Part shown: positions 15,041-39,123 of the stretch, one piece after another
How the letters are laid out: each line of letters opens with the position of its first letter
How positions within the stretch are numbered: the stretch's first letter is position 1
Virus record (IMG/VR): IMGVR_UViG_3300025879_000044
Location: 1-39,123 of that record
DNA from: a virus
DNA length: 39,123 nucleotides
Reading direction: 5' to 3' (one strand)
Position numbers and translations under genes: made by a program
Notes under the pieces: model-generated
What the model was told of the DNA's origin: nothing
What the model saw: only the letters and a program-made list of their open reading frames with translations
Database searches by the model: none

Positions 15041-15117
15041 TGGTCGGGGCTATAAGATTCGAACTTATGACCCCCTGGTCCCAAACCAGGTGCGCTACCA
15101 GACTGCGCCAAGCCCCG
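15041..15117 (-). tRNA. tRNA-Pro (anticodon UGG)
   Basis: The cloverleaf is complete: acceptor CGGGGCT/AGCCCCG, D stem GCGC/GCGC, anticodon stem CCTGG/CCAGG around loop TTTGGGA, and T arm ATAAG-TTCGAAT-CTTAT. Discriminator A and the CCA end are encoded. It reads CCA/CCN proline codons. Confidence 0.95.
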
Positions 15118-15279
15118 TCAAACTTTAACTGCTTTTATATTATTCATTCCGATACCTGAGTAACGACTTGCGCCGCCATACTTCATGTAATACTGATTAC
15201 GAGCATCATTTTCAGTCAATGCTCTAACACATCCTTTACTGATGCCGTTTACAAAAATTTCCCAGATACAAAAATACAT
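15118..15279 (-). CDS. Mini-protein between two tRNA genes
   Basis: This 53-residue protein begins MYFCIWEIFVNGISKGCVRA and ends SRYSGIGMNNIKAVKV. I chose the ATG at 15279; a longer frame to 15312 would run into the tRNA-Trp gene. GGAG lies close upstream. The stop is directly adjacent to the first base of tRNA-Pro. The WEIFVNGxSKG opening and ARNQYYMKYGGASRYSG suggest a compact alpha/beta fold. The pattern seems conserved in marine T4-like phages, but its role is unknown. Confidence 0.72.
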   Translation of the reverse strand: MYFCIWEIFVNGISKGCVRALTENDARNQYYMKYGGASRYSGIGMNNIKAVKV

Positions 15280-15298
15280 AATATATCTCCTTAATAAT

Positions 15299-15372
15299 TG
15301 GCAAGGGAGCAAGGAATTGAACCTCGTCTTACTGGGTTGGAGCCAGCCGTGCTACCGTAACACTTCTCCCCT
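15299..15372 (-). tRNA. tRNA-Trp (anticodon CCA)
   Basis: Acceptor AGGGGAG pairs with CTCCCTT (one G-U). The D arm is GTGT-TACGGTA-GCAC, the anticodon stem GCTGG/CCAGT around loop CTCCAAC gives anticodon CCA, and the T arm is CGAGG-TTCAATT-CCTTG. Discriminator G and CCA are encoded. Its first two bases overlap the stop codon of the upstream mini-gene. Confidence 0.9.
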
Positions 15373-15547
15373 ATAGCACAATCTCTTTACTTACAATAGT
15401 GCTACGGATAATATCCTCATGCTTACCATCATCCTGCTTTATGACAATGCGGTCACTCTTAGGATTCATTGGAAGTTCAACCCCTGTAACTTCAAGCAGA
15501 ACATCGGGCTTCTTCCAATGACGATAAACTATTCGATACTTTTCCAT
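15371..15547 (-). CDS. Mini-protein between two tRNA genes
   Basis: This 58-residue frame is intact from ATG 15547 to TAG 15373-15371: MEKYRIVYRHWKKPDVLLEV, then TGVELPMNPKSDRIVIKQDD, ending IVSKEIVL. AGAGG lies 6 bases upstream of the ATG. The segment DRIVIKQDDGKHEDIIRS resembles the end of another mini-gene at 15726-15893 (AAIVILKSDGTVRDIV), so the two may be distant paralogues. The stop overlaps the first bases of tRNA-Trp. Its function is unknown. Confidence 0.7.
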   Translation of the reverse strand: MEKYRIVYRHWKKPDVLLEVTGVELPMNPKSDRIVIKQDDGKHEDIIRSTIVSKEIVL

Positions 15548-15562
15548 AACACCTCTCTCATA

Positions 15563-15638
15563 TGGAGCTCCAGGACGGATTCGAACCGCCGACCTGAGGT
15601 TTACAAAACCCCTGCTCTGCCAACTGAGCTACTGGAGC
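15563..15638 (-). tRNA. tRNA-Thr (anticodon UGU)
   Basis: Acceptor GCTCCAG/CTGGAGC is fully paired, the D arm is GCTC...GAGC, the anticodon loop TTTGTAA lies on stem GGGGT/ACCTC, and the T arm is GGCGG-TTCGAAT-CCGTC. Discriminator T and CCA are encoded. Confidence 0.95.
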
Positions 15639-15642
15639 ATAT

Positions 15643-15719
15643 TGGCGATCCCTCCAGGATTCGAACCTGGGACCCACAGCTTAGAAGGCTGTTGCTCTAT
15701 CCAGCTGAGCTAAGGGACC
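15643..15719 (-). tRNA. tRNA-Arg (anticodon UCU)
   Basis: Acceptor GGTCCCT pairs with AGGGATC (one G-U), the D arm is GCTC...GAGC, the anticodon loop CTTCTAA lies on stem ACAGC/GCTGT, and the T arm is CCAGG-TTCGAAT-CCTGG. Discriminator G and CCA are encoded. It reads AGA, a codon frequent in AT-rich phage genes. Confidence 0.95.
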
Positions 15720-29810: not shown

Positions 29811-30305
29811 TTAATTTTTACCTCCCTTATTCAAGCGAGCTCGTATTTCCCCTAGATCTTTATCTGACAGAAGTCTTAGTGCCTCCTGTGCCTTTGTATT
29901 ACCATATCCAAAGTACTCCTTTACAATTTCAATATTCTCTTCCTTCTCAGGTTTTAACCATTTGTTGTAACGCTTCTTACTGCGGACAACATTGAGTAAA
30001 AAGTCATATTGCATCTTGTGTGCAAGGTGTGGGCGAGAGTTCATCTCGTTCGCGGCAATAACAGTATCAGGTCCATAGCTCATAGCCTTATTGACAATAA
30101 AGGGATTATATTGCTTCTCACTCCAGTCATCTATAATTAGATTATCCTTAGAATGATTAATACTGTTAGCAAAGTCAAAGGGACTTATAGCCTTTTTCTT
30201 CTCCACATAACTTTCAGCATTAAACTGTTCTACGGGCGGACCTAAATCTTCGAGGAAACTAGGTTTCATCTCGGAGGATGTCTTCTTCACTTGTTTCTTC
30301 ACCAT
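29811..30305 (-). CDS. 62: Clamp loader small subunit, T4 gp62
   Basis: This protein works with gp44 to load the gp45 clamp. It has about 164 residues from ATG 30305 (MVKKQVKKTSSEMKPSFLED); ATG 30269 is also possible, and both lie inside the end of the upstream gene. SPFDFANSINHSKDNLIIDD, then NPFIVNKAMSYGPDTVIAAN and EMNSRPHLAHKMQYDFLLNV followed by KRYNKWLKPEK and VKEYFGYGN match the marine T4-like gp62 pattern. It is separated from gp44 by four genes, unlike in T4. Confidence 0.88.
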   Translation of the reverse strand: MVKKQVKKTSSEMKPSFLEDLGPPVEQFNAESYVEKKKAISPFDFANSINHSKDNLIIDDWSEKQYNPFIVNKAMSYGPDTVIAANEMNSRPHLAHKMQYDFLLNVVRSKKRYNKWLKPEKEENIEIVKEYFGYGNTKAQEALRLLSDKDLGEIRARLNKGGKN

Positions 30306-31017
30306 ATTGTATCTCAATCACATGACAAGGTTTACTGTAAGGATTGTATAATTGATGCCACTCATTTGCTCTGACAACATGTACATCATCCTCTCTTAAA
30401 TTATGCATGGTAAAATTTGTTCTTTCACCCATGCTAGTCTTTAGTGTGCATTTACCCTGACTGATAAACCACACTTCACTTCTTAGAAAATGTTTCTGAT
30501 AGCTAATACCTTTACCAGGTTCAATAACAAGTTCCTTAACCTTTACTCTACTATCTTTAAATAGTTCTGTAAAGTGTCCCCAAACTCTTTCGGTAGTCTG
30601 ATACTGTTTCAGTAATTCACTGCTACTTTGTGTCTTGTCACCCCCTACACCAAAGACAAATTTCAACTTAGGATAATCAAACCGATGAAACTCAGGTACG
30701 GTCTTTTGTGTGCGGTCACCTCCATTAGCAAAGATGAGGTTATCATTTGGGTAATCATTCATCATAGAGGCTATGAAGTTTGTGGCAGTATCATCACTGT
30801 CATTCATAGTATACACTGCATCTACCATCTCTAAGGAAGATATGATGCTAGTTCGTTCCTGCTCTGACATAAAGGCCTTACCTTTTTTCCTAATAAGCCA
30901 GGCATCAGAGTTAATACCTACTGCCAACCTATCTCCAAGTTTTTTAGCTTCTCGGAAATAATCTATATGTCCAGAGTGTAAAGGATCAAACCCACCTGAT
31001 ACAAGAACAATGTCCAT
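30259..31017 (-). CDS. Nucleotidyltransferase-cupin fusion
   Basis: This 252-residue protein has two domains. Residues 1-135 are a cytidylyltransferase-like domain (GGFDPLHSGHIDYF, H14-S-G-H17) of the HldE/TagD type. Residues about 155-245 are a cupin like the C-terminus of type II mannose-6-phosphate isomerase: VKELVIEPGKGISYQKHFLR, then SEVWFISQGKC and HQLYNPYSKPCHVIEIQYGE. It could activate and isomerise a sugar phosphate. It sits between clamp-loader genes and overlaps gp62, which hides a metabolic gene in the replication operon. No exact equivalent is known to me. Confidence 0.82.
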   Translation of the reverse strand: MDIVLVSGGFDPLHSGHIDYFREAKKLGDRLAVGINSDAWLIRKKGKAFMSEQERTSIISSLEMVDAVYTMNDSDDTATNFIASMMNDYPNDNLIFANGGDRTQKTVPEFHRFDYPKLKFVFGVGGDKTQSSSELLKQYQTTERVWGHFTELFKDSRVKVKELVIEPGKGISYQKHFLRSEVWFISQGKCTLKTSMGERTNFTMHNLREDDVHVVRANEWHQLYNPYSKPCHVIEIQYGEETSEEDILRDET

Positions 31018-31187: not shown

Positions 31188-32276
31188 CTATTTAACAAAT
31201 AAACTATCAATTAATCTATCGCCGCCTTCTTGCTTACCACATTGCACCCAACATTGATTAATTGTTTTATACTTCCAACTATCACTATACATGTTTAGAG
31301 CACCATTGTCAAGCACTTCCTGCAGGCTATAAGTATACAAATTGTTACGATTTCCGATAGCCTTTTGTACACCTCTAACTTCTGTGGCTTCTTCCATATA
31401 TGCAGGTCCATACATCTTGTTCCCTACAAAACAACAAGGCTGTACATTACCTAAGTGGTCAATATAAATTTCACACATAGGTTTCTCGTGGTTGGGGGGA
31501 TGATGATTCCTAAACGCATTACACTCTATACACCCTTGGCGTGTTTTCAATCTAGGTCTTGGGGCAACATACCCCAAGTGAGGAGGCACATAGGGTTCCT
31601 TATCACCTTCTGACCAGTGGTTGATAACATATTCTAGATTATAGTCCTTGTCATATACAGGCATTCCTGTACCATCAACACCGAAAGGATTTTTAAGTCT
31701 AAAATGTACTCCTAGACTTTTTGCTAACTTTTCAGCTTCCTCTACTTGATGGCTATTGTATGAGAATCTTAGAAAGTCCCATGCCGCAAGACCACCTGCC
31801 GCAACATATGCCTTAATGTTGCTAATAACTTTATCCCACTTTACCTGCCTTCGATATAAATGGTTTGTATCCTCTAACCCATCTATGGAAAAAATAACTG
31901 CTCTGTTTACATCAGGCAATTTATTTTCTGCAAGTACCCTACCCAAGTCCGAAAAAAATTGAGTACCTCGCAACCCACCATTAGTATTAATCTGTATAGA
32001 GCCCGGGCTATGTTGGCAGATATATTCTACTATCTCTACTAAGTCTTTGCAGGTGATAGGATCCCCGTGGGTGCCACATATAATCCAGTTTTCAATCTTG
32101 GCTAATGCATCAGGACTGAACCAAGACTTAAACTCACCAATGCTAATATCCCGTTGTTGTAAATTAGGATCCACATTAGGAGAGTTTCTAAGATGTCGAG
32201 GACATCCTGGACAGGCGGCATTGCACCGACTGCTAAGTTCTAAATGTACGGCATTTAACTTTTCGTATGACCACAC
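31188..32276 (-). CDS. Radical SAM/SPASM-like protein
   Basis: This 362-residue protein has CNAACPGC (CxxxCxxC) near residues 18-25 for the radical SAM cluster, IENWIICGTHGDPITCKDLV, and a C-terminal set of Cys residues (CIEC, MCEIYIDHLGNVQPCCF) typical of a SPASM or twitch auxiliary cluster. These enzymes modify peptides or small molecules by radical chemistry. The start is GTG at 32276, overlapping the gp44 stop as TAGTG. It lies inside the replication operon; its substrate is unknown. Confidence 0.87.
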   Translation of the reverse strand: MWSYEKLNAVHLELSSRCNAACPGCPRHLRNSPNVDPNLQQRDISIGEFKSWFSPDALAKIENWIICGTHGDPITCKDLVEIVEYICQHSPGSIQINTNGGLRGTQFFSDLGRVLAENKLPDVNRAVIFSIDGLEDTNHLYRRQVKWDKVISNIKAYVAAGGLAAWDFLRFSYNSHQVEEAEKLAKSLGVHFRLKNPFGVDGTGMPVYDKDYNLEYVINHWSEGDKEPYVPPHLGYVAPRPRLKTRQGCIECNAFRNHHPPNHEKPMCEIYIDHLGNVQPCCFVGNKMYGPAYMEEATEVRGVQKAIGNRNNLYTYSLQEVLDNGALNMYSDSWKYKTINQCWVQCGKQEGGDRLIDSLFVK

Positions 32277-33211
32277 TATTTAAACTCCACATTAGCCATG
32301 ATCTCAGTGAGGCATGCAGTCAAATTAATTTCTTGGTCAGCGACAAAGGCTGCCTTATACTGATAATCCGCAATTAACAATACCAACTGCGGCACCTGCT
32401 TCACCTTATCCAGCATTGTGTCATACACTTTACGATACACCGCCTGAGGGTCACTGTCTACATTATTAGCGACCCACTGACGCATCTTCTTCCAGTCCTT
32501 GTCTCTAAGAGCGTCTACAAGAGCCTTAGTGTTAATCTCAGCTAAGTTACTAAGTATACCCTCATCAATTACACCCCCTACACTGTATCGCTGTAACTCG
32601 TTAAGCACACGGCGATAATCAGGAAAGTGCTTCATCAACAATTCAGCAAGGACTTTATCATTGTATTGTACATTCTCAGCTTGTAAAATCTCAATCATGC
32701 GTTTATGAAATTTACCAGCCATCCTTTGCTTCTGACCATTCTCTAGTTTAAACTCAATGACTGTAGTTCGACTATGCAGAGGAGCAATGATACGATTCTT
32801 AAAGTTACATGTAAAAATGAACCTACAGTTTTTTGAGAACTCCTCAATAAAAGCTCTCAATGCAGGTTGCGTAGAGTTAGGGTTTAGATAGTCTGCCTCA
32901 TCAAGTATAACCACCTTAGGCTTACCTTCAAAACTGACAGTGCTTGCAAAGCTCTTAATCTTTGTTCGCAACACATCAATGCCTGACTCCTCAGATCCGT
33001 TAATGACAATGTAATCACATTCTAACTCATTGCATAAGGCACGGGCGACCGTAGTCTTACCCGTGCCAGCAGTGCCGCATAACAGCATGTTAGGAATTTC
33101 ACCTGCTTCAACAAACTGACGGAAAACCGTAAGTGTCTCATCAGGTAGGATACATTCATTAAGAGTTTTAGGGCGATACTTTTCTACCCACAAGAACTCT
33201 TTGTTTTCCAT
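32276..33211 (-). CDS. 44: Clamp loader large subunit, T4 gp44 (AAA+)
   Basis: This is the ATPase subunit that opens and loads the gp45 clamp. It has 311 residues with EKYRPKTLNECILPDE (box II), Walker A GTAGTGKT (46-53), Walker B VVILDEADYL and HSRTTVIEF (the sensor/arginine-finger region, where SRC is SRT). RVLNELQRYS lies in the lid domain. The adjoining genes are peroxiredoxin upstream and radical SAM downstream. Confidence 0.95.
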   Translation of the reverse strand: MENKEFLWVEKYRPKTLNECILPDETLTVFRQFVEAGEIPNMLLCGTAGTGKTTVARALCNELECDYIVINGSEESGIDVLRTKIKSFASTVSFEGKPKVVILDEADYLNPNSTQPALRAFIEEFSKNCRFIFTCNFKNRIIAPLHSRTTVIEFKLENGQKQRMAGKFHKRMIEILQAENVQYNDKVLAELLMKHFPDYRRVLNELQRYSVGGVIDEGILSNLAEINTKALVDALRDKDWKKMRQWVANNVDSDPQAVYRKVYDTMLDKVKQVPQLVLLIADYQYKAAFVADQEINLTACLTEIMANVEFK

Positions 33212-33248: not shown

Positions 33249-33866
33249 TTAACTCATTTTTGCTTTAGAGTCAACCCCATCTTGCAAGTTTAGGGTAAGT
33301 TGTCTGCCTCGAGGTTGCCCACTTTCATCAAACAGTTTGCCCTGTAGGTATGCAAGGATGTTTTGCGGTGAGGAAATACCATAAGGATCATCATCGGCAT
33401 TAGCCATCATACCAGGTTCAATAAAAGATTTCTCAATCTCCATATTGTTTACAACCAAAGCATAACGCCAAGACCTAACACCAAACCCCAAGTTGTCTTT
33501 AAGAACATCCATACCCATATAGGTAGTAAAGATTGCAGACCCATCTGGGATAACCTTTACATTTTGTAGTCCTTGATCTTGTGCCCACTTATTCATAACA
33601 AAAGAATCATTTACTGACATACAATAAATTTCATCAATGCCCTCTGCCTGAAACTCTGTAAAAAGTTTTTCAAAGTCAGGTAGTTGAAAAGTAGAACAGG
33701 TTGGTGTAAATGCGCCCGGCAGTGAAAACAGAATGCACCGTTTACCGCCGAACAAATCTTGTGTAGTCACATCATCCCAACGATAAGGATTGTCGCCGCC
33801 GATGCTCTCATCACGAACACGGGTTTTGAAAATTACATTGGGAATTTTAAAAGGGAATCCTGGCAT
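33249..33866 (-). CDS. Peroxiredoxin (Prx5/AhpC-TSA type)
   Basis: This 205-residue protein has the peroxidatic site PGAFTPTCS with Cys57 in a Prx5-like context (KRCILFSLPGAFTPTC), RSWRYALVVNN and VEPG-like IEPGMMANADDDPYGIS. It reduces peroxides or alkyl hydroperoxides using thiol reductants. C44 and another Cys near 82 may resolve the disulfide. It lies between clamp (gp45) and clamp-loader (gp44) genes. Phage peroxiredoxins probably protect DNA synthesis from oxidative stress in surface waters. Confidence 0.9.
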   Translation of the reverse strand: MPGFPFKIPNVIFKTRVRDESIGGDNPYRWDDVTTQDLFGGKRCILFSLPGAFTPTCSTFQLPDFEKLFTEFQAEGIDEIYCMSVNDSFVMNKWAQDQGLQNVKVIPDGSAIFTTYMGMDVLKDNLGFGVRSWRYALVVNNMEIEKSFIEPGMMANADDDPYGISSPQNILAYLQGKLFDESGQPRGRQLTLNLQDGVDSKAKMS

Positions 33867-33876
33867 CGCATACTCC

Positions 33877-34539
33877 TTAAATTACAGAGCTAGGTTCTAG
33901 TGCAAGCCAATACTGAAGGTCAGTGGCTTTGTTTTTAAGATGCATAAACTTCTTCTGGCTCAAAGTAATTTCATACTCGCCTGGAATGACTTTAAAGTTT
34001 TCAATTGCCAAGCGGCAGTCAAAGTCTGTAGCATCTGTTTCACCGATAACATGTCGGAAACTATTGCTACGGGGAGTTGCAGGGTCACCAACTGATAGTG
34101 TCACTGTACCGTCTTTAGCAACAACACTAAGCATAGGCGCCGCCGTGATAGCCGCCGCCTTCATAATCATTGCAACCTCTGAAGATGAAAGATTGAAAGT
34201 AAAATGATTGTCTACTTCAATTGTCTTATCGGGCGCGGCGACAATAATGCTAGGATCTGCATAGTAATATTCAAACTTACTACGGTCTTTACTAATAGTA
34301 ATGCTCTCATCACCAAACTCTACATCTGTATCTTCCATCAGAGTGAGTAGGGCAAGCAAACTATTTAGATCGTAAATTGCAAACTCTTTATCAAAGGTTT
34401 CTTTAACAGTAGTTCGAGAAAAAATATTCTTGCCCGTAGAAATAGTTGCTAGTGTGCTACCTTCTCGGACAAGAATATTTGTATTAATGCTGGCATAATT
34501 TTTAAGTACATCCAGCGTATCTTTTGAGATTTTCATCAT
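33877..34539 (-). CDS. 45: Sliding clamp, T4 gp45
   Basis: This is the trimeric processivity clamp of the T4-type polymerase, also the coactivator of late transcription in T4. It has 220 residues: MKISKDTLDVLKNYASINTN, YDLNSLLALLTLMEDTDVEF, and the end KFMHLKNKATDLQYWLALEP match the marine gp45 pattern. There are two adjacent ATGs (34539 and 34536); GGAG is 8 bases from the second, which may be the real start. A sigma70 promoter lies at 34573-34601. Confidence 0.94.
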   Translation of the reverse strand: MMKISKDTLDVLKNYASINTNILVREGSTLATISTGKNIFSRTTVKETFDKEFAIYDLNSLLALLTLMEDTDVEFGDESITISKDRSKFEYYYADPSIIVAAPDKTIEVDNHFTFNLSSSEVAMIMKAAAITAAPMLSVVAKDGTVTLSVGDPATPRSNSFRHVIGETDATDFDCRLAIENFKVIPGEYEITLSQKKFMHLKNKATDLQYWLALEPSSVI

Positions 34540-35048: not shown

Positions 35049-35336
35049 TTACTTGCCGTGAACTCTATCGTGTTCATACAAAGCAAGAAATCCATAGTGA
35101 ATAGTCTTCACAATATCCTTACGCCATTCATCTGGGGTATCACCCTTTTTGCCGTAGCGGTCATTATACTTGTCGATATTGCCATGAAAGAATCCTTGAC
35201 CATGACCCCTATCTATAATGATCTCAGCGGACTGAAGTCCGCCTTGACCATAGTGACCTTTGTAAGTAGAATCAATATACTTTTTAAATTCCTCAATCAA
35301 CTCATCTTCACGGAACTTGTAAACTTTTTTACTCAT
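35049..35336 (-). CDS. DUF3310-like small protein
   Basis: This 95-residue protein contains HYGQGGLQSAEIIIDRGHGQ, then GFFHGNIDKYNDRYGKKG and DIVKTIHYGFLALYEHD, matching the DUF3310 pattern (HYxxGGxxxxEII...GFxxGNxxKYxxRxxxK...DxxKxxHY). Its role is unknown; it is sometimes annotated as a nucleotide-kinase-like phage protein without experimental support. It is coupled to the CobS-like gene by TAATG. Confidence 0.82.
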   Translation of the reverse strand: MSKKVYKFREDELIEEFKKYIDSTYKGHYGQGGLQSAEIIIDRGHGQGFFHGNIDKYNDRYGKKGDTPDEWRKDIVKTIHYGFLALYEHDRVHGK

Positions 35337-36496
35337 TAGAATGATACTCCTTCTACTTCTTCTGGGCTCTCAACATCAGCCACTTCATCCTCAGTGCCTA
35401 GTACACCTGAATCAACCTTAGTGTATAGCTCTGTAAACGCAGACTTAGTATCTGCATCAAAGCGGTTAACACAAAGCTCAATAGCTTTCATGCGGTCATT
35501 GAACATTGCATATGCATTGACAATGTGTTCTAATCGACGGGTACTGATGAGCTCTTCAATAGCACCCTCATAGAATGTCTTACGGATAATATCAGCCCAG
35601 GTGACTAGCTTCTCCGCAAAGTCCTCATCCAGCTTGCCTGCCTTCTGCATCTTGCCGAGAATAATCTTTTTCTCCTGCGCCTGAGATGGGTACTCCTGCT
35701 CAACTGTGATTGCAAACCGTTCTAGGAATGCCTCATCTAGAATTTGAGCACTCATGAACTTGCCATCATCTGAACCGCGGCCTTTTGTATTAGCCGTTGC
35801 AATGACATTGAATCCAGGAGCAGGAGTAACCATCTCGCCTGTCTTTTTATTAAAGTAAGCCTTACCCTCGAGGATGGCTTGTAGGCACATCAACTTGTTT
35901 GAACCGCGGTCCAACTCATCAAGGATAAGAACTGCGCCTCGCTTCATTGCGGTAAGTACTGGACCCTCACGGTAAACAACATTACCATCGACCAGTGTAT
36001 TACCACCAATGAGGTCATCCTCGTCCGTCTCAATTGAGATGTTTACTCGGATAGCCTCACGCTTCAACTTAGCGCAAGTCTGTTCTACCATCGTAGTCTT
36101 GCCGTTACCTGACAAGCCTGAGATGAAAGTAGGATAAAACATTCGGGACTTGAGAATCTGGGTCAAGTCCTTACTGAAACCAAACGGCACATAAGTAGCA
36201 TCAGCCACGGGGACAAGGTTGTCCACCTCGACCGCTAGTTTAGCCTGTGTCACTACCTTAGCCTCCTGAGGTTCGATTGTCATAACAGGAGTCTGGGGTT
36301 TAGCCTGCATAGGAACCACCACACCCTGCATGTTCAATGCATATTGGTTACGGGCAACCTTGTTCTCACGGAAGAACCAGTGAGGGAATTTAAGCCCTGC
36401 GTTCTTAGCCGCTTCAATAACCTCAATGCGAGTGAAGACACCCGTACCGTTGTCAATGTTACCCAGTGTATTTAAAAGTGTTTGACGATCTGACAT
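35336..36496 (-). CDS. cobS: CobS/MoxR-like AAA+ ATPase
   Basis: This 386-residue protein begins MSDRQTLLNTLGNIDNGTGV from ATG 36496, with GAGGAG 7 bases upstream; the GTG at 36511 would lie before that site. An N-terminal 100-residue region precedes the AAA+ core: Walker A GLSGNGKT (127-134), Walker B AVLILDELDRG and FNVIATANTKGRG (sensor 1). Members act with VWA partners to remodel or insert metal into proteins; phage CobS is linked by name to cobalt insertion into cobalamin, but here it pairs with a VWA/metallopeptidase gene. Confidence 0.9.
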   Translation of the reverse strand: MSDRQTLLNTLGNIDNGTGVFTRIEVIEAAKNAGLKFPHWFFRENKVARNQYALNMQGVVVPMQAKPQTPVMTIEPQEAKVVTQAKLAVEVDNLVPVADATYVPFGFSKDLTQILKSRMFYPTFISGLSGNGKTTMVEQTCAKLKREAIRVNISIETDEDDLIGGNTLVDGNVVYREGPVLTAMKRGAVLILDELDRGSNKLMCLQAILEGKAYFNKKTGEMVTPAPGFNVIATANTKGRGSDDGKFMSAQILDEAFLERFAITVEQEYPSQAQEKKIILGKMQKAGKLDEDFAEKLVTWADIIRKTFYEGAIEELISTRRLEHIVNAYAMFNDRMKAIELCVNRFDADTKSAFTELYTKVDSGVLGTEDEVADVESPEEVEGVSF

Positions 36497-36543
36497 AATA
36501 TAACTCCTCACAAGTAAATGTCTAACTTTCTAACTATACATGT

Positions 36544-36572
36544 ATTATGGACTCTTTTTACTCGGAAGTCAA
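36544..36572 (-). promoter_or_regulatory. Sigma70-type early promoter with extended AAAAGAGTC box
   Basis: TTGACT (36572-36567), 17 bases ending AAAAGAGTC, then CATAAT (36549-36544), upstream of the CobS-like gene. Confidence 0.8.
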
Positions 36573-36621
36573 GCACTTTATGACCAAAATACAAACTCTT
36601 TTCCTCAAATGAATCAAGGAC

Positions 36622-38838
36622 TTAGGCTACCTTATCAATAAACCTATTCAGGAATACTCGGCTGGTAGTCTTATTTTTCTGAAACTTCTTGAATCCTCGA
36701 AGTACATCACTCTTGGAATCTGACTTAACGGTCAAGCCCTCATCGTCAACCTTGAGGTTGTTACCATTCTTAATGGCATACATCACATCAAACTCTTTGA
36801 AGTTCTCAAGCTCAAAGAATTTATTGGCAGTCCATTCTTTTTTGTACTTCTCCTCAAACTTGGAGTATTCATAGTCCGGTGCTGTAATGAACATGTCCAT
36901 TAGGTCACGGCGTTTGAAACTACCAATGTGCAGGTTAATCAAATTACAATCTACTGTATTTTTAAGGTGTTTCAGTACCGCACGATACCACACATCACCC
37001 CCATACCGCGCCCAAAACAAGTCTCGGAATTTGTATTCCGTTGTAACTGCACCTTCAGTAATTGCAATAGAGCCAACCTTGCGTAAGGATTGTCCATCAG
37101 GGACTTCTAGTTCACCTGTTGCATCACCATCTGTGAGGAAAATTACATTCATCACCTCAACATTGTGTTTATTGCGGAACTCCTTAATAAGGTCACGGGC
37201 TACAAGAGTAGTCTCGGCAAGCGGTGTGCCTCCCAATCCTAGTTGGTCAGGCAAATGGTAACGCCCAATATATCGTTCATTTATACTTTCTGGTCCGCGG
37301 TGCCAACTTCTAGGAGCCATAGCCTTCGCCAATGTTAGCATTTTGCGGAATACTTTTTTATATGTTGCGGCGTCCAATGAGGAAGACATCAAGTGATTAA
37401 TCTGAAGATCCTCTTTTACCATTGCAAGTTTACCTGGCTCAAATCCATTATTTGCAATGGCAAGAGACTCGCGATATGACTCGCCAGGTTTGCATATACC
37501 TTTAGAGCTAGTGGTGAATGAATAAACATCAAAAGGAATATTCACTTTTTTACAAAAACTAATCTGAATCAATGTCTGCTCAATAGTAGATTCTAAGTCC
37601 TGGTTCATTGAACCTGAAAAATCAATGAACATCATCATACCGTGGTTTTTGCCTTTAGGAACTACAGTGTTTGACAAGAACACATCCTCGGTCAACCGTG
37701 TCGCCCAGAGCTTATCTACATTTAGCTTACCTGTCTTGTTTTGACGAGCCTTGGCAAACTCACTAGCCTTACGCTTCATCTCAAACTGCTGGACAAGTGT
37801 ATTAATGTAAGAAGCATTCTTGAGATTAAACTCGCTCCACGCTTCATCTGCAATTTCAGTCCAAGGAATATCTTCTTCTGAGTGGTATGTAGGCTTAAAC
37901 ACCCCCTCAAACTCTGTGTCCCATACATCTTTAATGGGCATCACGCACCGCTTGATATTCATTTTAGGAAACTTTGCATACAGGATATCGTCGGCGCCCT
38001 TATCTAAAAGGCGGTCCTCGCTTTCACGGAAATTTTGATCTGTAAATGACTGGGGTGTTTTGCTCTCACCTTGTTCTTGGGGAGCAGACTCGTCTTCCAC
38101 TTCTTCTTTCTCATCTGTGTTTGACCGAGGAGCAGTGCCTGAGGAATCATTAGCTTCTTCCTGTTCTTCTTCATCCTCGTCCTCATCGTCATCACCTGCA
38201 CCAGAGGACATATCATTATCTTCCTCGTCCTCATCGTCATACTCATCTGAGTATTGAAGGTCATCTAACATGTCCTGCATCTCAGGTTCTTCTTTCGAGT
38301 ATTCAAACAGATCGTTGGCAATCGCCATAACATCTTCCCATGTTTCGGCAAGGTCAATACGATTAATATAGGACTGTTCCTCGGCAGTGAAATTAATACC
38401 CGCCATACTACCTATCTTATAATGTAGGTTAATGCGGTCAATTAGAGGGAGGGCATCAATATCTCGACCTTTAATGCCGAAGAAGTCATTGGCGTATAAG
38501 TTCTGATAACCTTTGTAAAAGTTACGAACTAGGCCTGGGAACTTGTCCTTAATCTTACGCTCAATACGAGCGTCCTCAATGACATTGAGAAACGACTTGA
38601 AGCCTTGACCCTTTTCGGATACCTCATCGTGCCAACCTTCTAGGGGGGTGTACAATGCATGACCTACCTCGTGACCGATAAGCATATCGTAAAGGTCATT
38701 GTCCATTGTCTTCCAAATGGGTAGGATGATCTTGCGAGATTTGAGGTCAAAAGCCGCGGTTGAGACCTTACGGTGCTCAACCGATATATTTTCTGCGGCT
38801 AGTAACTTTGCTAATGTGCTTTTCTGTGCAATTTCCAT
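36622..38838 (-). CDS. cobT: CobT-like protein: HExxH metallopeptidase-like domain plus VWA domain
   Basis: This 738-residue protein has an N-terminal HEVGH at 56-60 with a possible third ligand E88 in NVIEDARIERK, as in HExxH...E zinc peptidase-like proteins. Residues about 190-260 are extremely acidic (DEYDDEDEEDNDMSSG), as in CobT. The C-terminal VWA domain has the MIDAS motif DFSGSM near 402, a later Thr, and FLTDGDATGE. AAA+/VWA pairs work as a chaperone or metal-insertion unit. The two genes are adjacent, but each has its own early promoter. Confidence 0.88.
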   Translation of the reverse strand: MEIAQKSTLAKLLAAENISVEHRKVSTAAFDLKSRKIILPIWKTMDNDLYDMLIGHEVGHALYTPLEGWHDEVSEKGQGFKSFLNVIEDARIERKIKDKFPGLVRNFYKGYQNLYANDFFGIKGRDIDALPLIDRINLHYKIGSMAGINFTAEEQSYINRIDLAETWEDVMAIANDLFEYSKEEPEMQDMLDDLQYSDEYDDEDEEDNDMSSGAGDDDEDEDEEEQEEANDSSGTAPRSNTDEKEEVEDESAPQEQGESKTPQSFTDQNFRESEDRLLDKGADDILYAKFPKMNIKRCVMPIKDVWDTEFEGVFKPTYHSEEDIPWTEIADEAWSEFNLKNASYINTLVQQFEMKRKASEFAKARQNKTGKLNVDKLWATRLTEDVFLSNTVVPKGKNHGMMMFIDFSGSMNQDLESTIEQTLIQISFCKKVNIPFDVYSFTTSSKGICKPGESYRESLAIANNGFEPGKLAMVKEDLQINHLMSSSLDAATYKKVFRKMLTLAKAMAPRSWHRGPESINERYIGRYHLPDQLGLGGTPLAETTLVARDLIKEFRNKHNVEVMNVIFLTDGDATGELEVPDGQSLRKVGSIAITEGAVTTEYKFRDLFWARYGGDVWYRAVLKHLKNTVDCNLINLHIGSFKRRDLMDMFITAPDYEYSKFEEKYKKEWTANKFFELENFKEFDVMYAIKNGNNLKVDDEGLTVKSDSKSDVLRGFKKFQKNKTTSRVFLNRFIDKVA

Positions 38839-38863
38839 AATACTTACTCCTCACTATACCTAT

Positions 38864-38892
38864 ATTATGGACTCTTTTCACACGGATGTCAA
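38864..38892 (-). promoter_or_regulatory. Sigma70-type early promoter with extended AAAAGAGTC box
   Basis: TTGACA (38892-38887), 17 bases ending AAAAGAGTC, then CATAAT (38869-38864), 25 bases before the CobT-like ATG, which has GAGGAG upstream. Confidence 0.85.
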
Positions 38893-38895
38893 GCA

Positions 38896-39123
38896 CTATT
38901 TTCGTTTTTTTGCACCTTTTTTAGGTGTTGTAGGTCCTTGTTCTTCAACAAGTTTTTTATTCTTTAGCCGTTCCAGTACATCATCGGCTTCCATCCAGTA
39001 GTCTTTTCCGTCCAAAAGTGACGCCATTTCGTCATCTGTAAGGAATCCCCCATACACGGATTTGACTAGTTTCTCACCCCATGAAGCCTCAAGTTTGACC
39101 TGCGCCTGCATTTCACTACTCTT
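38896..39123 (-). CDS. Small protein, possibly truncated by the window edge
   Basis: The frame is open from the right edge to a stop at 38896. An ATG at 39111 would give 71 residues (MQAQVKLEASWGEKLVKSVY), but the frame continues upstream without a stop, so the true start may lie outside. It contains FLTDDEMASLLDGKDYWMEA and ends in a Lys-rich tail (KKGAKKRK). No family was recognised. The early promoter for the CobT-like gene begins right after its stop. Confidence 0.6.
   Translation of the reverse strand, partial: KSSEMQAQVKLEASWGEKLVKSVYGGFLTDDEMASLLDGKDYWMEADDVLERLKNKKLVEEQGPTTPKKGAKKRK

Follow-up and report, generated by a model that had tools for sequence, protein, structure and literature searches.

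Background

The gene cobS is commonly listed among the auxiliary metabolic genes that cyanophages carry for vitamin B12, and it is part of the core genome of cyanophages (Sullivan 2010, PMC3037559). In the virus fragment IMGVR_UViG_3300025879_000044 from IMG/VR (39,123 bp, analyzed over its full length and called the window below), a cobS-like gene for an AAA+ ATPase stands next to a gene for a protein with a VWA domain and an HExxH motif. The question raised by this locus is whether such a pair serves cobalamin synthesis or some other purpose. Proteins of this kind have been read in two ways: an N-terminal metallopeptidase is part of the MoxR-vWA pair that Iyer et al. 2021 (PMC7824862) described for group 2.2 jumbo phages, with virion assembly as the proposed role, and the cyanophage 'peptidase' was read as a misannotated CobT (Liu et al. 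2021, PMC8651126). In the literature searched we found no paper that joins the two, and both are partly right, the protein being related to CobT and keeping a peptidase site. With a probability of about 0.72, we consider the pair to be a MoxR/CobS-type AAA+ ring ATPase with a VWA cofactor that carries an N-terminal minigluzincin-type metallopeptidase domain, i.e., a remodelling machine and not a cobaltochelatase.

The gene pair and its domains

The window belongs to a T4-like phage, with genes for gp45, gp44, DNA polymerase, a DnaB-like helicase, UvsX recombinase, and primase. Both genes of the pair are encoded on the minus strand towards the right end of the window, with the VWA gene as the upstream and the AAA gene as the downstream member. 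Their features are as follows:

36622–38838, minus strand: VWA protein with N-terminal zincin-like domain, 738 amino acids (PHROG 459 'peptidase', phrog_459, E 3.6e-186)
38269–38838, minus strand: predicted N-terminal minigluzincin-like domain, residues 1–190 (AlphaFold2 model, zincin matches, homology to the CobT N-domain via relatives)
38659–38673, minus strand: HEVGH, residues 56–60, with the predicted zinc ligands H56 and H60 and the predicted catalytic E57 (invariant; on helix 47–63)
38563–38586, minus strand: NVIEDARI, residues 85–92, with E88 as probable third ligand (N85, E88, D89, R91, and I92 invariant; on helix 78–99)
38062–38262, minus strand: acidic linker, residues 193–259, probably disordered (predicted local distance difference test, pLDDT, under 50)
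36625–37656, minus strand: VWA domain, residues about 395–738 (best structural match NorD VWA 9qh6_G)
37609–37623, minus strand: metal-ion-dependent adhesion site (MIDAS) motif DxSxS, residues 406–410, together with T538 and D570
35336–36496, minus strand (36511 with the GTG start): CobS-like / MoxR-type AAA+ ATPase (AAA_5, E 1.1e-16; CbbQ_C above cut-off)
36095–36118, minus strand: Walker A, GLSGNGKT (G, G, and GK invariant)
35915–35929, minus strand: Walker B, LILDE (DE invariant)

The AAA gene probably starts at the ATG at 36496 rather than at the GTG at 36511, because the latter overlaps the ribosome-binding site. It falls into phrog_249, labelled 'porphyrin biosynthesis' in PHROGs (E 9.7e-109). 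The Walker A and Walker B motifs of the encoded protein were invariant in 77 sequences, and among solved structures it matched midasin (E 6.6e-40), CobS (E 3e-24), and NorQ (4.8e-12). In the VWA protein, the MIDAS residues D406, S408, S410, T538, and D570 were invariant in 37/37 sequences, and the structural matches of the VWA half had the NorD VWA as the best (Z 16.2) and the MIDAS domain of Rea1/MDN1 (midasin) with Z 14.8. The intact Walker motifs and the adjacent MIDAS-bearing protein are the marks of a MoxR-type AAA+ ATPase with a VWA cofactor. Staphylococcus and Lactobacillus phages, in which the AAA gene is present with no adjacent gene for an HExxH-VWA protein, were left out of the analysis.

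Conservation and fold of the N-terminal domain

Relatives of the VWA protein were recovered from 463 phage records, nearly all of them cyanophages. A sequence-only reading of this stretch had pointed to HEVGH (residues 56–60) with a downstream NVIEDARIE (residues 85–93) as a gluzincin-like pattern, and would have given up the idea if H56, E57, and H60 were not conserved in homologues. The pattern is present and all three residues are conserved: together with N85, E88, D89, R91, and I92 they are identical in 64/64 viral homologues covering the region. The peptides used to fetch these homologues came from other regions of the protein, so that the motif played no part in their selection, and the 202 HExxH loci picked by the motif itself were left out of the conservation evidence. 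Among 70 aligned viral and cellular N-domains (17–67% identity to the query), no positions other than these eight are invariant (70/70). Since they are invariant in homologues that were not fetched by the motif, chance is excluded as an explanation for the HExxH / NxxED motif. The cellular relatives (n = 34), fetched via the NxxEDxRIE or KNHGMM motifs, have HExxH in 31 cases and HExxxH in three.

Searches with the full-length model in Foldseek and VIA-align matched the VWA half only, and the N-domain was therefore folded and searched alone. The AlphaFold2 model of this domain (pLDDT 92.9; predicted template modelling score, pTM, 0.89) places HExxH on helix 47–63 and E88 on helix 78–99, which is the gluzincin arrangement and makes E88 the probable third zinc ligand. 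Matches to solved structures were dominated by zincin metallopeptidases (BepA, Z 7.8; ZMPSTE24, 7.3; jannalysin, 7.2), with selecase, BlaR1, ArdC, SPRTN, and Wss1 as further matches. We take the N-domain to be a probable minigluzincin-type metallopeptidase domain. Solved CobT N-domain chains (21vu_H) were not among the structural matches, from which nothing follows as they may be newer than the structure library.

Relation to CobT and CobS

The HExxH domain had initially been taken for an addition foreign to CobT. This does not hold: Pfam scores and a joint alignment identify it as the CobT N-terminal domain with an intact metal site. Both Pfam CobT models (PF06213 / PF11775) recognize HExxH-intact relatives from phages of E. 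coli, Salmonella, Rhizobium, and Roseobacter above their cut-offs, e.g., SSU5 with 129.6/374.4 bits (E 2e-37 against PF06213), PhiR41_1 with 94.7/274.6 bits, and CRP-810 with 57.5/136.1 bits. In the joint MAFFT alignment, the viral and plasmid HExxH stands opposite [SA]xxx[RKQ] in 22/22 genuine CobT proteins; the register is free of gaps and has a conserved G at its flank, and all 22 keep a glutamate at the E88 position. The possibility that the CobT 'HDxxxH' is an HExxH shifted by one residue was rejected, as both profile and MAFFT alignments place HExxH opposite [SA]xxx[RKQ].

Compared directly as profiles, T4-like N-domains and CobT gave a weak match (hhalign E 0.028), and the link runs through intermediates, from T4-like N-domains to bacterial relatives (E 3e-26) and from these to CobT (9e-5). 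The CobT homology of the window protein rests on such intermediates because T4-like proteins are too divergent for the Pfam CobT models. In an unrooted tree of the AAA proteins, CobS, the T4-like AAA, and the AAA of bacterial elements form three clades, with the T4-like clade separated from CobS (support 97/96 vs. 100/100), and only the partner of the CobS clade has an erased zincin site. CobS/CobT thus look like a branch of the AAA-VWA family that lost the metal site, a direction of change that we infer from the sequences.

Cobaltochelatase or not

Against the NCBIfam equivalog models, the window AAA protein scored 84 bits with CobS (TIGR01650, cut-off 558.55) and the VWA protein 17.6 bits with CobT (TIGR01651, cut-off 759.05). 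No CobN gene is present in the 39-kb window and no other cobalamin gene was found among the window proteins scanned, in line with what had been seen from the sequence alone. Relatives of the pair occur in a phage of E. coli K-12 and in the Vibrio cholerae phage ICP2; neither E. coli nor V. cholerae is known to have CobN. The T4-like pair is also present in Pelagibacter phage HTVC008M (host HTCC1062), and SAR11 was described as B12 auxotrophic (PMC9296465) and as lacking MetH (PMC12478193).

The cellular genes were also considered, using a sample of 289 genomes, many of them drafts, from the class of Pseudovibrio (Alphaproteobacteria). CobT exceeded its curated cut-off in 157 genomes and CobN its own in 96. 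For 150 genomes with such a certified CobT, listed individually, 64 were without any CobN match, and draft incompleteness cannot plausibly be the cause of this 43%. Caulobacter vibrioides is a named case of CobT without CobN. A certified CobT does not imply a cobaltochelatase, and in cells, too, CobST may often serve a different purpose.

Liu et al. 2021 (PMC8651126) proposed that viral CobS and CobT borrow the host CobN and raise cobalamin production during infection. The AAA protein does resemble CobS (E 1e-23, in addition to the match with the solved structure), and cyanobacteria have CobN and no CobS/CobT. CobN is present in both Synechococcus genomes tested, which leaves the hijack model a slim chance for cyanophages alone. 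As an account of this pair we consider it very unlikely, given the scores far below both equivalog cut-offs, the position of the AAA clade apart from CobS, the intact zincin site found in none of the genuine CobT, the presence of the pair in phages of SAR11 and E. coli K-12 and of a related set on IncC plasmids, and the frequent lack of CobN beside certified CobT itself. The pair is most likely not a cobaltochelatase.

Gene neighbourhood

In 123/126 viral loci, the AAA gene is the next recognized gene after the VWA gene. Upstream, gp46 was found in 97/117 viral loci; downstream, gp45 in 93/126 and DUF3310 in 52/126. The T4-like order is gp47-gp46-(peptide deformylase)-VWA-AAA-gp45-gp44, and the near-identical contig L002, which extends the window, has gp47, gp46, a peptide deformylase, and a whole ClpP-like protease gene (CLP_protease, E 4.6e-12) followed by the pair. 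DNA polymerase III alpha is the neighbour of the pair in PhiR41_1, SSU5, and nickie, and in the last two a DNA ligase is close by. A related AAA-DUF3150-VWA set flanks ssb, bet, and exo on IncC plasmids, for instance in E. coli plasmid pPG010208 (L254, 4407–12400), where the order is AAA, hypothetical, ssb, bet, exo, DUF3150, and HExxH-VWA. Relatives of the IncC VWA protein are found in 1178 plasmid records, including 972 conjugative ones. As this association recurs in unrelated elements, replication and recombination proteins are the suggested clients.

The neighbouring genes in the window are:

35049–35336, minus strand: DUF3310 protein, overlapping the end of the AAA gene (Pfam DUF3310; frequent neighbour)
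38896–39111, minus strand: ClpP-like protease, C-terminal part, running off the window (phrog_1827)
33877–34539, minus strand: gp45-like sliding clamp, as context (phrog_223, E 1e-62)
32276–33211, minus strand: gp44-like clamp loader, as context (phrog_168, E 1e-124)

ClpP-like protease and peptide deformylase genes lie directly upstream of the pair (window 38896–39111; L002 3466–4940); among the 117 testable viral loci, ClpP was upstream in 16 and the deformylase in 72. Between gp45 and gp44 there is a peroxiredoxin-like gene (33249–33866), which was found downstream in just 14/126 viral relatives, and a radical SAM protein gene (31188–32276) adjoins the clamp loader gene. A single reading frame at 30259–31017 fuses an HldE/RfaE-like nucleotidyltransferase domain with a mannose-6-phosphate isomerase-type cupin, and four tRNA genes (Pro, Trp, Thr, Arg) are located at 15041–15719.

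Promoters

Each gene of the pair is preceded by a promoter block:

38850–38897, minus strand: 48-nt block before the VWA gene, TTGACA-N17-CATAAT (11/12 consensus matches)
36530–36577, minus strand: 48-nt block before the AAA gene, TTGACT-N17-CATAAT (88% identical to the block at 38850)

The observation that both genes have promoters of one class was thus borne out, the block being private to the pair within the window: no further copy of the TTGAC[A/T]-N17-CATAAT core was found in the 39 kb, where 0 were expected. In two relatives (L082 and L003), the two promoters are unlike those of the window and yet alike each other, and for this reason coordinated expression of the pair is suggested by the sequences. 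A literature search on the expression timing of cyanophage cobS found nothing.

Proposed function and alternatives

In the proposed remodelling machine, the MIDAS of the VWA protein would dock a client protein, the AAA ring would spend ATP to pull on the client or release it, and the H56/E57/H60/E88 site would clip it; the most likely clients would belong to the apparatus of DNA replication and recombination. The sequence-only reading had suggested that the pair may be a remodelling and proteolytic complex directed at host targets rather than a cobaltochelatase. The second half of this claim is supported; with regard to the targets, the gp47/46-gp45/44 neighbourhood points to replication and recombination rather than to host proteins.

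Several observations weigh against the machine proposed here. The window VWA protein itself stays under the Pfam CobT cut-offs (12.2 bits against PF06213, threshold 26.1), and the neighbouring genes give weak guidance on the client. The structural matches of the N-domain are individually weak (all Z < 8, best Foldseek E 0.042), and because of this the zincin assignment depends on the matches being consistently of one type, together with the invariant motif. An HExxH fold can be catalytically silent. Moreover, Pseudomonas phage nickie (L258, 3483–5567) keeps the pair with SEISK in place of HExxH, which the sequences mark as a separate loss, and the relative in Vibrio cholerae phage ICP2 is without the third glutamate, so the site can be dispensed with. 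An alternative is a metal site that is structural or belongs to a pseudo-enzyme, in which the N-domain merely binds the AAA ring or the clients, as in CobT. Such a reading agrees with the maintenance of a pair without HExxH in nickie and in all genuine CobT examined; we find it doubtful, as the general-base residue E57 never varies across the highly divergent set (70/70) and a purely structural zinc site has no need of it.

Two further alternatives keep the same machine and change its clients, and the confidence given to them overlaps with that of the preferred reading. A virion assembly chaperone that processes structural proteins, after Iyer et al. 2021 (PMC7824862) for group 2.2 jumbo phages, would fit the same domain architecture and the archaeal-virus MoxR-vWA pair, cited there, that serves tail assembly. 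We regard it as unlikely, because the T4-like pair sits among replication and recombination genes and not structural ones, and because the related set is carried, beside ssb, bet, and exo, by IncC conjugative plasmids, which build no virion. It is also rather unlikely that the pair is a takeover protease that acts early in infection by unfolding and cutting specific proteins of the host. The conserved protease site, the matched sigma-70-like promoters before both genes, and the ClpP-like protease gene immediately upstream speak for it; on the other side, the promoter class is no proof of early timing, we know of no host target, and a position so strictly kept between gp46 and gp45 would suit a core function better than a host-specific attack.

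For the remodelling machine acting on replication or recombination proteins, a wider view can be put forward tentatively and at less than even odds: the marine T4-like 'cobS'/'peptidase' would be one version of a widespread viral and plasmid AAA-VWA-metallopeptidase machine working on such proteins, and CobS/CobT its protease-less branch recruited to metal insertion. If the metallopeptidase is active and the pair works in CobN-less hosts, the ecological reading in terms of B12 would be wrong for a very abundant virus group. Cobaltochelatase CobT would at the same time obtain a testable ancestry, as an inactivated zincin domain in which one glutamate was kept.

Comparison with known systems

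NorQ/NorD and midasin, both AAA+/VWA-MIDAS remodelling machines, share the AAA similarity and the VWA fold with the pair and differ in their clients; we know of no zincin site in their VWA subunits. The AAA-DUF3150-VWA cluster of IncC plasmids and related bacterial elements is similar in having HEAAH and NVLEDCRIE together with a VWA domain and a CobS-like AAA protein (E 3.2e-51), whereas it includes the extra DUF3150 protein and is located with ssb, bet, and exo. With CobS/CobT (TIGR01650, TIGR01651; PF06213, PF11775) the pair has in common the AAA+/VWA gene pair, the order of N-domain, acidic linker, and MIDAS VWA, and the glutamate at the E88 position; in contrast, CobT is without HExxH, the window pair is far below the equivalog cut-offs, and its AAA protein belongs to a separate clade. 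The viral CobST cluster of Liu et al. 2021 (PMC8651126) comprises the same gene pair, including the cyanophage 'peptidase' renamed CobT, and was read as a cobaltochelatase, although HCTV-16 (Druskaviridae), discussed there, has an intact HExxH. The pair of Iyer et al. 2021 (PMC7824862), likened here by its description, also joins an AAA+ ATPase to a VWA cofactor that has a metallopeptidase domain at its N-terminus, but it comes from another phage group, was assigned a virion-assembly role, and was not linked to CobT. The pair in the window would be a further case of this published kind, and its interest lies in the reinterpretation of the viral 'cobST' and of the CobT N-domain.

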